A stretch of DNA of 64,000 nucleotides from Priestia megaterium NBRC 15308 = ATCC 14581. GTDB taxonomy: Bacteria > Bacillota > Bacilli > Bacillales > Bacillaceae_H. Every line of letters starts with the position of its first letter. The first letter of the stretch is position 1. Position numbers and translations under genes: made by a program. Location: NCBI RefSeq assembly GCF_000832985.1, contig NZ_CP009920.1, positions 4,582,501-4,646,500 on the forward strand, in the 5' to 3' direction. The notes beneath the pieces were generated by a model. It had not been told where the DNA came from and ran no database searches. It was given only the letters and a program-made list of their open reading frames with translations. Shown one piece after another: positions 8,755 through 50,617 of the stretch.

Positions 8755-8779
8755 CGCTTTTAACAACTAATAAACAGTA

Positions 8780-9029
8780 TTTGGCAATGAAAAGGACATG
8801 AATTAGATGCTGTTTTCTTCGCAGAGAATAGGGTCACTGGCTGAGAGCCCTTAAGAAATCATCTGATTTACCACCTTAGAGCTATTGCAGGGAACGTGCA
8901 TAACTGAAACTGCAATCGGTAAAACCGTTATCTTTTTTGAGCGTAAAATACGTATAGGTATTTTACGGAATTAGGGTGGTACCACGGCCGCATTCGTCCC
9001 TTCACTAGGGATGAGTGCGGCTTTTTATG
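8780..9029 (+). ncRNA. T-box riboswitch 1 (threonine)
   Basis: Stem I region (AATGAAAAGGACATGAATTAG, then AGGGTCACTGGCTGAGAGCCC), a specifier-loop ACC codon in GATTTACCACCTTAGAGC, the invariant AGGGTGGTACCACGG T-box sequence near 8973-8987, and a terminator with arms CCGCATTCGTCCC / GGGATGAGTGCGG and a T run. ACC is a threonine codon. Uncharged tRNA-Thr would stabilise the antiterminator and allow transcription of the synthetase downstream. Confidence 0.93.
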
Positions 9030-9047
9030 TAGAAAAAATGAATATAC

Positions 9048-9296
9048 AAGCAATGAAAAGGACATGAATCATTTTTGGATTTTCTTTACAGAGAATAGGG
9101 TCACTGGCTGAGAGCCCTTAGAAAACAAAATGAATTTACCACCTTGGAGCTGCGGCGGGGAATGTGTATACACTGAAACCGCAACCGGTAAAACCGTTAT
9201 CTTTTTAAGCGTAAAATACGTATGAGTATTTTACGGAATTAGGGTGGTACCACGGCCGCATTCGTCCCTTTACTAGGGATGAGTGCGGTTTTTTTG
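9048..9296 (+). ncRNA. T-box riboswitch 2 (threonine), tandem copy
   Basis: A near-identical second copy of the upstream leader, with the same specifier ACC (GAATTTACCACCTTGGAGC), T-box AGGGTGGTACCACGG at about 9241-9255 and a CCGCATTCGTCCC / GGGATGAGTGCGG terminator. Two in series need two readings of uncharged tRNA-Thr, which sharpens the response, as in the multi-T-box leader of B. subtilis thrZ. Confidence 0.93.
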
Positions 9297-26623: not shown

Positions 26624-27052
26624 ATGAATGATAAAAGTGTAGTAGAAGATGTAAAACAGACGATAATATTTAACGCGCCGATTCAAAAAGTTTGGGATAA
26701 AGTAGCAAGCGCAGAAGGGCTCCAACAATGGTTCATGCCTAATGATTTTCAGCCTCAGGTAGGATATGAATTTCATTTGCAATCGCCTTTTGGCCCATCT
26801 CCGTGTAAAGTATTAGAAATAGATGCACCAAACTATCTTTCTTTCTCTTGGGATACGGATGGATGGGTCGTTTCGTTTACCTTAAAAGAAATGGGTAATC
26901 AAACTGAATTTACGCTTATTCATAGCGGGTGGAAAGAAGCTGAAACACTTCTTGAAAAAGCAAACGAAAAGAGTTCAGTGGTACGAGATAGAATGAGCTA
27001 CGGGTGGATTAGTCTCGTAAATGAAAAACTTCGAAAGGTTGTTGAAAACTAA
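26624..27052 (+). CDS. SRPBCC/AHSA1-domain protein
   Basis: 142 residues from ATG 26624. An ATG at 26612 directly abuts AAGGAG and is disfavoured. This is a START-like Aha1-C family domain: [49 protein letters not shown], then FTLIHSGW. The fold binds hydrophobic ligands, and its substrate here is unknown. The TAA is immediately followed by the ATG of an ArsR-family repressor, a common pairing in Bacillus. Confidence 0.85.
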
Positions 27053-37443: not shown

Positions 37444-37458
37444 ATACTTAATTTCAAA

Positions 37459-37570
37459 GACTATATGTGACTGGCGAAACGCGGATAACCGTGAGGAAGC
37501 ATATAGTGACGTAGCCGTTCGCCTGGGCAGAGGTAAGGGATTAATACATATCTCTTACCTCTTTCTGTTT
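37459..37570 (+). ncRNA. ZTP (pfl-motif) riboswitch with terminator
   Basis: The aptamer shows P1 arms CTATATG / CATATAG, the conserved GTGACTGGCGA after the first arm, a small P2 (CGG-ATAA-CCG), and the hallmark CGCCTGGGCA at the 3' end. It runs straight into a terminator (AGAGGTAAG / CTTACCTCT, 37529-37562, then TTTCTGTTT). Because the GCCTGGGC segment adjoins the terminator arm, binding of ZTP/ZMP should prevent termination. ZTP signals shortage of 10-formyl-tetrahydrofolate. The gene controlled here is a phosphoglycerate dehydrogenase, which supplies serine for one-carbon units. Confidence 0.88.
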
Positions 37571-47177: not shown

Positions 47178-48023
47178 ATGGATTTAGCTTATAGAGATAA
47201 AGCTTACGAATATGCCAAAAGATTCGAATCTAGCTATGACGATTATGATGAACGCTATAAGGTGCACAATAATCCGACGGTGTGGCGATTTATGCCGATG
47301 TCTGATTTTCAAGATTTACTGGAAACCAATGCGCTTTTTTTCGCAAAACCTGATGCATTTTCGGACCCCCTTGAAGGATGCTCTTCAATGTGGAACATAG
47401 AAGAGTTAAGAAAAAAAGGCGAACGTCATAACCGTACCTCTAGAACCTATATAAGAAAAATCCATGAATTTTCTGCTGTTTCATCCTGGCATATCAATGA
47501 TTACGAAGCCGCTGGAATGTGGGATTTATATTTAAAGGGGAATGATGGCATAGCTATTAAAACCACCTATGAAAATTTATTGTGCAGTATTAAAGATTTA
47601 CGCTATAAAATCTTCTCTGGCAAAGTGCAGTACATAGACTTCCAAAAAGAAATGGTCAGTCACTCTGTATATGACACGTTATTTTACAAGCGCAAATCCT
47701 ATCAGCATGAAAATGAATTGAGGCTTGTTATTGTAGCAAGCCGTATACACGCTTGGAAGCTGCAAAAGCTATTCGAAATTCAAGGTATTTCCGCAAATCA
47801 ATGGCAAAAACGAATGGATATCCTTGAAAAAAGATCGTATGAGTTTTCTCATGAGCATGGTAACCTCCTGACATGTAATTTACATCAGCTTATCAATGAA
47901 ATTTACGTATCACCAAGAAGCGCTCAAAGCTGTGTAGATGAAGTAAAATCCCTTGCTAAAAAACACGGACTCGCTTATAAAAAGGTCACTCAGTCCGACT
48001 TGTATAAGGACTATATTTATTAA
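47178..48023 (+). CDS. DUF2971-family protein
   Basis: 281 residues with GAGGAGG before the ATG. DUF2971 landmarks: WRFMPMSDFQDLLETNALFFAKPDAFSDPLEG near residues 36-67, SSWHINDYEAAGMWDLYLKGNDGIAIKTTYENL near 105-137, then YKRKSYQHENELRLVI near 174-189. The function of the family is not established, and members occur in mobile and defence-related settings as well as core genomes. It precedes a ChaB-like gene by about 65 bases, so co-transcription is possible. Confidence 0.82.
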   Translation: MDLAYRDKAYEYAKRFESSYDDYDERYKVHNNPTVWRFMPMSDFQDLLETNALFFAKPDAFSDPLEGCSSMWNIEELRKKGERHNRTSRTYIRKIHEFSAVSSWHINDYEAAGMWDLYLKGNDGIAIKTTYENLLCSIKDLRYKIFSGKVQYIDFQKEMVSHSVYDTLFYKRKSYQHENELRLVIVASRIHAWKLQKLFEIQGISANQWQKRMDILEKRSYEFSHEHGNLLTCNLHQLINEIYVSPRSAQSCVDEVKSLAKKHGLAYKKVTQSDLYKDYIY

Positions 48024-48088
48024 ATGTTTATGTTATTTGAAAACAGGTAAATCAGTAGTAAAAGATGTTTTCAAGGAGGAATACGATC

Positions 48089-48286
48089 ATGCCTTACAAT
48101 TCATTAAAAGAACTGCCGGATGGAGTAAGAGATAATCTTCCTCATCATGCTCAGGAAATTTATAAAGAAGCATTCAATTCAGCAAGTGATGAATACAAAG
48201 AAGAAGCTACCGCTCACAAAGTCGCTTGGAACGCGGTGAAAACGAAGTACAAAAAAGATGATAATGACAACTGGGTGAAAAAATAG
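48089..48286 (+). CDS. ChaB-family small protein
   Basis: 65 residues from ATG 48089 with AAGGAGG nine bases upstream. LPDGVRDNLPHHAQEIYKEAFNSASDEY near residues 7-34 and AHKVAWNAVKTKYKK near 42-56 are the ChaB signature (cation transport regulator family, E. coli ChaB). Soluble, helical. Its role in Bacillus is unclear, and some homologues belong to the general stress response. Confidence 0.85.
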   Translation: MPYNSLKELPDGVRDNLPHHAQEIYKEAFNSASDEYKEEATAHKVAWNAVKTKYKKDDNDNWVKK

Positions 48287-48345
48287 AGACAAAAGAGCCT
48301 AACCATAATGGATTTATTATTTTTTGAAAAAAATCTCCGAATTAG

Positions 48346-48370
48346 GTTTCAATTATTTTTTCGGGGGTAT
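48346..48370 (+). promoter_or_regulatory. SigB-type promoter
   Basis: GTTTCA (48346-48351), a 13-base spacer and GGGTAT (48365-48370) fit the general-stress sigma-B consensus GTTTAA-N12-15-GGGTAT. Confidence 0.65.
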
Positions 48371-48413
48371 ACACTCTATGTAAGGCCAATACAAGAAAGG
48401 AGAGACTGTACAC

Positions 48414-48521
48414 ATGCATTGTTTTACAGCGACTTCAAGAAACGTATTGAGCACCTTAGAAGGAAGATTTGTTTTGATTACAAAAGGCACATTGGTAAAC
48501 AATCGTTATACTAAGTGCTAG
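48414..48521 (+). CDS. 35-residue basic peptide behind a SigB-type promoter
   Basis: ATG 48414 has AAAGGAGAG about ten bases upstream and opens 35 codons: MHCFTATSRNVLSTLEGRFV, then LITKGTLVNNRYTKC. The segment LEGRFVLITKGTLVNN looks beta-rich. No family recognised. A sigma-B-like promoter ends 44 bases before the start and a strong terminator follows at 48573, so it forms a compact stress-inducible transcription unit. Confidence 0.5.
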   Translation: MHCFTATSRNVLSTLEGRFVLITKGTLVNNRYTKC

Positions 48522-48572
48522 GCTGTCTAATTAAGACAGAATACTCCACTATTCAAACATAAAATTAAGTAT

Positions 48573-48609
48573 AAAAAAGAAGATGCGTTCTAAGCGCATC
48601 TTCTTTTTT
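48573..48609 (+). terminator. Terminator
   Basis: AAAAAAGAAGATGCG / CGCATCTTCTTTTTT arms. Confidence 0.9.
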
Positions 48610-48682
48610 GTTAACTCTATTTTCCCTCCCTTTTTGTACTTCGTCTTATTTTTCCGCATAAAGTAATAAAAAGGAGGGGGTT

Positions 48683-50617
48683 ATGCTGTTTGATTATGAA
48701 CAGGAGTTAACGATTCACCGAAAAGATGCTACTCAAAAGACGGCAGCGACTAATGCTGATACTTATAAAAACATAGACTGGGAACAAGTGAAATCAGAAA
48801 AAAATCTTGCCGATTACCAAGCTCTTGTACGCGTACCTTTTCCTCTGATTTTCAAAAAAAATCAGCTGTATCCTGTATGGAATTTAAGAAAGTACGCTTT
48901 TTTATTTGAACAATCTACACCTGCTACTGTCCACCCTAAACTGTGGGAACAAGGAAAATTAAATGTACAAGCCGGCTTATATCAAGTAACTGAAAATATC
49001 TTTCAAGTAAGAGGCTTTGATATGGCTAATATTACATTTGTTAAAGGGAAAACGGGATGGATTGTTATTGATTGCTTGACGTCAAGAGAAACAGCAGAAG
49101 AAGCGCTTAAACTAGTAAACCAGAACTGCGGGAAGCGTCCTGTTAGAGCCGTTATCTTCTCACATTCACATATAGACCATTACGGTGGAGTTTTAGGAGT
49201 ATTACCTGACTCAACACAAAATAAAACTAGTAAAGTTTATGCTCCTGCTGGGTTTATGGATGCGGTTATCGATGAAAACGTCACAGCGGCAACAGCAATG
49301 ACACGAAGAAGTCAATATATGTACGGTATTCAACTGCGACGCGATGAAAAAGGCTTAATTGACAACGGTATCGGAAAAGAAATTTCATTTGGAACAATCA
49401 CGCTTATTAAAGGCATAGAAGAAATCCATCCTTCCGAACATCATTCTTATGTAAGTAAGAAAATTGACGGCGTCTCATTTCAGTTTCAGCTTACGCCAGG
49501 AACGGAAGCGCCTGCTGAAATGAACATCTATATTCCTAGTGAAAAGTCTCTGTGTATTGCAGAAAACTGTACGGCCACTCAGCACAACCTCTATACGCTC
49601 AGAGGAGCAAAAGTAAGAGACGCAGCGGCATGGGCAAGATACCTGCAGCAAGCAATCGATTTATTTGGCCAAGAACTAACAACTGTATTTGGGGTACATA
49701 ATTGGCCAAGGTTCGGAAACGAGTCGTCCATCACATATATCGAAAATCAACGAGATGTTTATCAATATATTCATGATCAAACATTAAGGCTCATGAATCA
49801 AGGATATACCATTGATCACGTCGGCCGAATGATGAAGCTCCCAGAAATCTTATCTCACGAGTGGTATACCAACGGTTTTTATGGAACGGTTAACCACAAC
49901 GCAAAAGCGGTTTATCAGCGCTATATGGGCTGGTATAACAGCAATCCTGTCGATTTAAATAAACTGTTTCCTGAAGAGTCAGCTAAGAAGTACGTAGAGT
50001 ATATGGGGGGAGCGGACAACATTGTCAAAAAAGCGCAGCGTTGTTTTCAACAAGGCGACTATCAATGGGTAGCTGAAGTGACCAAACAAGTTATTTACGC
50101 TGATCCTCACCATGTGAAGGCAAAACTTTTATGTGCAGACGCGCTTGAACAATTAGGGTATATAGCGGAATCTGGCCCTTGGCGAAATGAATATTTAACA
50201 GGAGCCAAAGAACTTCGTTTAGGTAATATACCGCTGCCTGCCAACATTATCACAAAAGAAGTATGGGATACACTTCCTTTAAAAAATATCTTAGAACTAT
50301 TTAGCATTCGCGTAGATGGATTAAAGGCAGGTGGATGTAACTATCGTCTATTGTTTGTCATACCAGATCGTAATGAAGTAGCTCTCACAGAACTTAAGCA
50401 TGGAATCTTTAGGTATCTCGGAGATACGCGAAAGAAAGCTGAGGTGACGGTAACGATGTGGCAAGATACCTTATATCGACTCACAACTACAAATGATCAC
50501 TCTTATAGCTCGGTCATATTTGTTCAAGGAAATAAATCAAAATGGGATTTCTTTTTGTCTTGTCAGGATTCTATCGATCCAAACTTTAACATTGTGACAC
50601 CTGTTTCTAAAAAATAG
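48683..50617 (+). CDS. Alkyl sulfatase (MBL-fold SDS hydrolase type)
   Basis: 644 residues. N-terminal MBL domain with IFSHSHIDHYGG (His161, His163, Asp165, His166), then CIAENCTATQHNLYTLRGAKVRDAAAW, VFGVHNWPRFG, an alkylsulfatase dimerisation domain, and a C-terminal SCP2-like domain. SdsA1/YjcS-type enzymes remove sulfate from primary alkyl sulfates. No signal peptide, unlike periplasmic SdsA1, so it is probably intracellular. AAGGAGGGGG precedes the ATG. It is the second sulfate-ester hydrolase in this window, with the arylsulfatase near 6.6 kb. Confidence 0.93.
   Translation: MLFDYEQELTIHRKDATQKTAATNADTYKNIDWEQVKSEKNLADYQALVRVPFPLIFKKNQLYPVWNLRKYAFLFEQSTPATVHPKLWEQGKLNVQAGLYQVTENIFQVRGFDMANITFVKGKTGWIVIDCLTSRETAEEALKLVNQNCGKRPVRAVIFSHSHIDHYGGVLGVLPDSTQNKTSKVYAPAGFMDAVIDENVTAATAMTRRSQYMYGIQLRRDEKGLIDNGIGKEISFGTITLIKGIEEIHPSEHHSYVSKKIDGVSFQFQLTPGTEAPAEMNIYIPSEKSLCIAENCTATQHNLYTLRGAKVRDAAAWARYLQQAIDLFGQELTTVFGVHNWPRFGNESSITYIENQRDVYQYIHDQTLRLMNQGYTIDHVGRMMKLPEILSHEWYTNGFYGTVNHNAKAVYQRYMGWYNSNPVDLNKLFPEESAKKYVEYMGGADNIVKKAQRCFQQGDYQWVAEVTKQVIYADPHHVKAKLLCADALEQLGYIAESGPWRNEYLTGAKELRLGNIPLPANIITKEVWDTLPLKNILELFSIRVDGLKAGGCNYRLLFVIPDRNEVALTELKHGIFRYLGDTRKKAEVTVTMWQDTLYRLTTTNDHSYSSVIFVQGNKSKWDFFLSCQDSIDPNFNIVTPVSKK

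Follow-up and report, generated by a model that had tools for sequence, protein, structure and literature searches.

A micro-gene of Priestia megaterium with a candidate SigB-type promoter and a conserved RNA hairpin: computational evidence for a multi-copy peptide family in Bacilli

Known small SigB genes and the layout of the locus

Judged by their descriptions, the functionally nearest analogues of the micro-gene analysed here seem to be SR7/SR7P of Bacillus subtilis and SbrA/SbrB of Staphylococcus aureus. As far as the accounts in PMC8152036 and PMC7430163 go, SR7 (S1136) is a dual-function transcript of small-RNA size with a SigB-dependent promoter, which acts as an antisense RNA, lies in the tyrS-rpsD spacer and has 10 homologues, all of them in Bacillus. 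The peptide SR7P comprises 39 aa and is described there as a product of cells stressed by ethanol, salt, manganese, heat or acid. SbrA and SbrB were found as combinations of a SigB promoter and a terminator in spacers, and the section on them in PMC3861533 suggests a dual function for SbrB. A further point of comparison are the mRNAs of txpA-type type I toxins, in which, according to the description in PMC7430163, a small ORF has its Shine-Dalgarno sequence (SD) in a double-stranded region.

The micro-gene is located in a stretch of 64,000 nucleotides, which is called the window in the following. It resembles SR7/SR7P, as described, in combining a SigB-type promoter with a short ORF (35 codons here, 32-51 in the family, 39 aa in SR7P). 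However, it is not an antisense RNA gene within a tyrS-rpsD spacer but stands alone, flanked by chaB and an alkyl sulfatase gene, its family is multi-copy and occurs in many genera instead of in Bacillus only, and, in contrast to the published picture of SR7, it possesses a predicted SD-hiding hairpin that extends into the ORF. The likeness to SbrA/SbrB, again by description, consists of a SigB-type promoter and a terminator in a spacer, but these two are staphylococcal and the pertinent section of PMC3861533 does not mention an SD hairpin. With txpA-type mRNAs the micro-gene shares a small ORF with the SD in a (predicted) paired region, whereas the hydrophobic toxin and the cis antisense RNA ascribed to that type were both not seen for the micro-gene family.

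A first-pass annotation had proposed that a promoter, a ribosome binding site, 35 codons and a terminator form one compact unit, and all four elements could indeed be located within 48346-48611 (Table 1). The ATG is the sole ATG, GTG or TTG codon in the frame of the ORF since the preceding stop. A sigma-70/terminator scan of positions 47500-49500 listed no terminator, and the single sigma-70-like site that it gave, at 48236, is not part of the unit. The micro-gene and both neighbours have the same orientation. In four other Priestia genomes the unit is found with 91-94% identity (in L004 over 276 of 340 bases), and in three of them (L001, L004, L005) it is also flanked by ChaB and the sulfatase; L003 has kept the sulfatase but has no ChaB between the unit and a DUF2971-like gene 1.4 kb upstream. 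Five Priestia genomes, the own genome included, encode the 35-residue peptide with 94-100% identity. Elsewhere, the window contains two T-box leaders in tandem (8778-9272) and a ZMP/ZTP riboswitch (37457-37535).

Table 1. Features of the micro-gene unit and its neighbours (positions within the window)
Feature	Positions	Strand	Details
Candidate SigB-type promoter	48346-48370	+	GTTT 48346-48349, 15-nt spacer, GGGTAT 48365-48370; read from sequence
Shine-Dalgarno AAAGGAG	48396-48402	+	GGAG paired in predicted hairpin
35-codon ORF MHCFTATSRNVLSTLEGRFVLITKGTLVNNRYTKC with stop	48414-48521	+	ATG 48414, TAG 48519-48521; profile and pN/pS
Intrinsic terminator	48571-48611	+	19-bp stem, -22.6 kcal/mol, z -7.7
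Conserved structured RNA (domain 1)	48378-48467	+	Leader and about 18 codons; covariance model, covariation, fold
Predicted second RNA domain (weaker case)	48462-48548	+	Last about 19 codons and 3' UTR; folding energy
ChaB family protein, upstream neighbour (context)	48089-48286	+	PF06150, E 1.5e-24
Alkyl sulfatase / metallo-beta-lactamase fold, downstream neighbour (context)	48683-50617	+	PF14863, PF14864, PF00753

The peptide family and its promoter

The peptide had initially been described as matching nothing recognisable. This holds for the curated libraries, since Pfam, NCBIfam, PHROG and PADLOC gave no significant profile match for the up to 26 members searched (best E 0.1), but it does not hold beyond them: on sequence comparison, the peptide is a member of a large, unnamed multi-copy family and not an orphan, and the host genome alone contains three copies. 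A family-profile search of solved structures yielded nothing at E ≤ 1, one family peptide used as query had no match in phage records, and no publication on the family was among the matches listed in a literature search by locus type and sequence strings, which covers few subscription papers.

The family members are 32-51 aa long and share the motif TATS..V(L/I)...(K/Q)GTLVxNR(Y/W). With the window peptide as query, matches at E ≤ 1 were obtained in 16 of 61 relatives, distant copies counted, although six of these (E 0.15-0.8) are probably due to chance. Profile A1 detected copies in 10 of the 16 genomes of the taxonomic family of the host and matched 31 of the 397 genomes of the order, where the matches in G276 (with an internal stop) and G364, both at E of about 0.005, are probably chance as well. 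A wider profile matched 14 of 329 genomes of the class, five weakly in the genera g191/g201 (E 0.0009-0.006) and one weakly in G533 (0.008). A contig scan resulted in at least 51 family loci, drawn from 80 pattern matches, in Priestia, Peribacillus, Mesobacillus, Neobacillus, Cytobacillus, Psychrobacillus, Rummeliibacillus, Aneurinibacillus and Bacillus sp. The distribution is patchy across the order, and even within Priestia the family is absent from three of ten genomes. Many loci carry tandem copies approximately 200 nt apart, and a plasmid search at E ≤ 1 found copies in 54 records of Priestia, 51 of which cover at least 80% of the query; none of the 30 plasmid matches listed carries an annotated feature in the (incomplete) gene table. 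One contig titled Chryseobacterium sp. ISL-80 (L108) holds a Mesobacillus-like pair of copies with peptides as in L061, and this assembly is perhaps mislabelled or mixed.

In each of 87 members, which were selected by the peptide motif, an in-frame start codon is located 2-9 nt past the SD block. This codon is TTG in 40 cases, ATG in 32 and GTG in 15, the window member being one of those starting with ATG. Since the ORFs are short and 40 of 87 begin with TTG, gene finders may overlook the family. TATS is present in 64 and GTLVxNR(Y/W) in 73 of 85 distinct coding sequences. The pN/pS ratios, counted over non-independent sequence pairs, are 0.22-0.42 across the 15 C-terminal codons and 0.26-0.58 for TATSxxVL, and support purifying selection on the peptide. 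The 66 peptides analysed have a median pI of 9.2 (range 4.7-11.8) and a median net charge of +1.5 (range -1 to +8), with values of 9.8 and +4 for the window peptide. They are not membrane-like, as the best 15-residue Kyte-Doolittle window reaches at most 1.30 (median 0.85), and AlphaFold with 26 rows gave no confident fold (pLDDT 58.9).

SigB promoters are of the type GTTT-N14-16-GGGTA. In PMC3861533, the consensus is quoted as GWWT-N14-17-GGGWWW. Taken alone, the promoter of the micro-gene is at chance level, since the 64 kb contain two GTTT-N14-16-GGGTA sites where 1.2 are expected; the other site lies at 26875-26897 on the plus strand. It is the comparison across genomes, with the conservation of the unit and of the promoter in front of first copies, that raises it above chance. 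The sample for this comparison comprised 87 distinct members from L001-L123 (71 first and 16 downstream copies), or 55 first and 11 downstream tandem copies without near-duplicates. GTTT-N14-16-GGGTAT was matched at 8 or more of 10 positions before 51 of the 55 first copies (11.4 in shuffles), in 48 of these 51 with a spacing of 15, and at 9 or more of 10 before 42 of the 55 (1.35 in shuffles). None of the 11 downstream tandem copies has a match (1.0 in shuffles). The four first copies without one are L087, L007, L022 and L119, of which the last three come after remnant or sister copies of the gene. The first-pass proposal of a SigB-type promoter ahead of the small gene is supported.

As a positive control, the host's own rsbV-rsbW-sigB operon is preceded by GTTT-N15-GGGTA with the same spacing. 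SigB is encoded in the host genome (TIGR02941, 441 bits) and was matched at E ≤ 1e-124 in 30 of the 31 genomes of the order with a peptide-profile match, the exception being G276 with its doubtful peptide match. However, since 343 of the 397 genomes of the order possess a SigB above the cut-off, this co-occurrence is only mild. In four family-bearing genomes of f58, no SigB exceeds the curated cut-off and there is just a relative scoring 245-255 bits; similar promoters were seen by eye in these genomes as well. According to the part of PMC7053513 that deals with high salt, the products of the SigB operon and predicted SigB genes are up in B. megaterium under this condition, which indicates that the SigB switch is active in that group. 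The conserved promoter suggests that the micro-gene itself depends on SigB.

A predicted RNA hairpin over the ribosome binding site

The first-pass annotation had overlooked a predicted RNA hairpin, which covers the leader and the first approximately 18 codons and pairs the ribosome binding site. Throughout the family, the block AAGGGACTGG before the start and the codons ACAGCGACTTC are strongly conserved despite differing spacing and frame. In the inner part, GAAG pairs with CUUC and CUG with CAG, with a purine internal loop in between, while the outer stem is formed by CAAUAC / GCCAAUAC of the leader and GUAUUG / GU-AUUGGC inside the ORF; the first bases of the leader (UGCAAGG and variants) pair farther along the ORF. 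In the window, the outer stem joins UAAGGCCAAUAC (48381-48392) with GUAUUG (48444-48449), GC (48451-48452) and CUUA (48455-48458), the SD helix GGAG (48399-48402) with CUUC (48433-48436), and a third helix CUGUA (48406-48410) with UACAG (48425-48429).

The covariance model R1, built from 19 sequences, matches the window over the whole of domain 1 with 34.8 bits (E 4e-6). Among 84 R1 matches (80 distinct), 89.9% of the cells are paired compared to 81.0% in shuffles, and there are 103 two-sided changes compared to 24 in shuffles and 21-39 when the pairing is slid. For 47 matches at loci that had not entered the model, the corresponding values are 90.3% paired vs 77.1% shuffled and 34-45% slid, with 95 vs 29 cells with two-sided changes; both alignments are fitted to the covariance model. 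An unfitted MAFFT alignment of the 19 sequences gave a small excess (88.0% paired vs 85.4%; six two-sided cells vs 2.1). Almost all of the two-sided changes fall within the outer stem, which covaries strongly. In the SD helix, a two-sided change occurs at one pair in seven of the 84 matching sequences, namely the L114-L119 clade, and the 47 outside-model matches display there G-U changes only and no two-sided ones.

Folded to lowest energy with no model imposed, 41 of 51 members show the complete set of three helices, compared to 2.8% of 1020 controls with shuffled flanks. RNAalifold returned no pairs or the inner helices only for the MAFFT alignment of all 51, and on 15 related members it recovered the outer stem too. 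For the window alone, the stability of domain 1 is nothing out of the ordinary (z -1.34) and was equalled by 15 of 200 shuffles.

R1 matches 29 of the 397 genomes of the order. RNA and peptide searches point to the same 28 genomes, setting aside G276, G364 and G382 (peptide only) and G049 (RNA only); G382 holds a genuine divergent family member (L071). Nine RNA-model matches without or with a weak peptide match were inspected by eye, and eight of them have a family-type small ORF, with a good promoter-like site in six and a poor one in two (L161, L166). The ninth, L163 (E 0.005), was taken as a chance match. A second peptide subfamily of the MKVLSASSKLVIGSALEGGFVYLKKGTLTPNKVIRRGKL type in f47 genomes (L158, L160, L162, L164, L165) came to light via the RNA model. 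In Rfam, the RNA element of the window stayed below the gathering score, also far below in a low-threshold scan of the locus, and the sole match among 18 family loci was a ribosomal RNA adjoining the copy of L097.

The SD is predicted to be held in mRNA structure family-wide. Its five bases have a mean unpaired probability of 0.30 at 37 °C vs 0.59 with shuffled flanks, changing from 0.29 at 25 °C to 0.34 at 55 °C, and for the GGAG of the window the predicted values are 0.04 at 37 °C, 0.07 at 45 °C and 0.16 at 55 °C. In folding predictions for the growing chain, the SD core is unpaired with a probability of 0.8 until 24 nt past the block, 0.35 at 30 nt and 0.15 at 60 nt.

Constraint at the RNA level is also visible within the codons. 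In TATS, the second threonine is encoded by ACT in 64 of 64 and the alanine by GCG in 57 of 64 cases; for the threonine of GTLV, three codons are in use. When each of 51 members was recoded synonymously 60 times, the natural mRNAs proved on average more stable in their folds than the recoded versions, with a mean z of -0.84 for the 5' part, -1.55 for the whole and -1.66 for the 3' part. The whole RNA of the window has a z of -4.8, terminator included, and its domain 2 folds with -24.7 kcal/mol (z -4.5). Covariation counts for domain 2 among relatives are no higher than in shuffles. Stop-codon hairpins of two clades were considered and dropped, since their pairing (84.4 vs 83.4% and 77.6 vs 76.5% shuffled) exceeds that of slid versions only, and domain 2 is therefore a folding-energy result only. 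A small hairpin in the KGTLV codons was set aside as well, as 59% paired vs 55% shuffled (sd 1.3) and 30-41% slid reflects little beyond column composition.

Proposed mode of action and alternatives

What computation supports is the family with its promoter pattern and its RNA structure, as well as purifying selection on the peptide. We consider it probable, at roughly 0.6, that the micro-gene gives rise to a SigB-transcribed mini-mRNA, which is gated by its own hairpin and makes a small, usually basic stress peptide; SigB dependence, gating, translation and stress role are what we infer here. Under stress, active SigB would produce an RNA of about 235 nt, running from approximately 48378 to the terminator at 48611 if the conserved promoter is used. 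Its 5' end would fold into the long hairpin, with the SD paired with the TATS codons and the start codon in the apical part, and translation of the full-length RNA would be held back. Since the SD is predicted to be open early and closed after the 3' strand has emerged, initiation would most likely be co-transcriptional or need an opening factor. The product would be a small, usually basic peptide with the conserved (K/Q)GTLVxNR(Y/W) end, which, speculatively and by analogy to SR7P, might bind and modulate some cellular partner in general stress.

Evolution seems to have preserved the peptide as well as the shape of the RNA. Since the hairpin pairs the SD and constraint acts on the RNA itself, the originally proposed stress peptide may be half of the story only. 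It is possible, although doubtful, that the folded SigB RNA, acting through base-pairing or by binding a protein, is the actual product, with the ORF being second or dispensable. The constrained synonymous sites and the stability lost upon recoding are in favour of such a dual-function or mainly RNA-acting transcript, as are the loci of the f49 genera g191/g201 (L178-L181). These have kept a promoter-like site and the 32-nt invariant core TGCACAGCCTTGGCGG(A/G)AAATTTGCTTTACTG, while none of the four retains the usual SD-start block with AAGGGACTGG (L178 carries a different GGAGG) and three are without the KGT codons. They might be RNA-only descendants, but they could be decaying copies, and R1 finds none of them. 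Preservation of frame and start codon in all 87 motif-selected members, pN/pS ratios below 1 and the shuffle-level covariation of domain 2 also argue against a mainly RNA-acting transcript. Selection on the peptide is supported, but constraint on synonymous sites and a lineage with the RNA core but no usual start block make an RNA function conceivable. A similarly tentative idea is that of a new SigB-controlled dual-function RNA class in Bacilli, in which one transcript of about 240 nt is folded along most of its length, ORF and RNA structures coincide codon for codon, the RNA acts in trans and the peptide separately, and one lineage is RNA-only.

Multi-copy, tandem and plasmid-borne small ORFs with a hidden SD also call to mind the toxins of type I toxin-antitoxin systems. 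The copies in Priestia plasmid records, the tandem arrays, the SD sequestration predicted in silico and the weak start codons would be consistent with a toxin, but the peptides are not hydrophobic, a scan for sigma-A-like antisense promoters at 51 loci found seven sites vs 15.5 in base-shuffled sequence and none in the window, and for 26 members PADLOC gave no match and PHROG none below E 0.12, so that we regard a toxin as quite unlikely. An RNA thermometer, from which the peptide would be made upon heat shock, is unlikely too. SigB responds to heat in Bacillus and the SD lies in an imperfect helix with internal loops, but the slight predicted opening up to 55 °C speaks against a simple thermometer. 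Finally, the promoter of the window, which by itself does not exceed chance, could have met a chance ORF in a spacer, with close relatedness as the only cause of conservation; the cross-genus family, the promoter statistics and the covariation speak strongly against this and render it extremely improbable.

The mini-mRNA for a stress peptide would enlarge the general stress response of Bacilli by an unnamed, multi-genus gene family and would be a clear case of a short coding sequence superimposed on a conserved RNA hairpin. Since the peptide and RNA layers are separable, their roles are directly testable. At Psychrobacillus-type loci (L079, L084, L085 and others) and at those of g191/g201, there is also a conserved block near TTTTTTGTG(G/A)AAGTGCA 3' of the ORF, which can pair with UGCAC inside the ORF.
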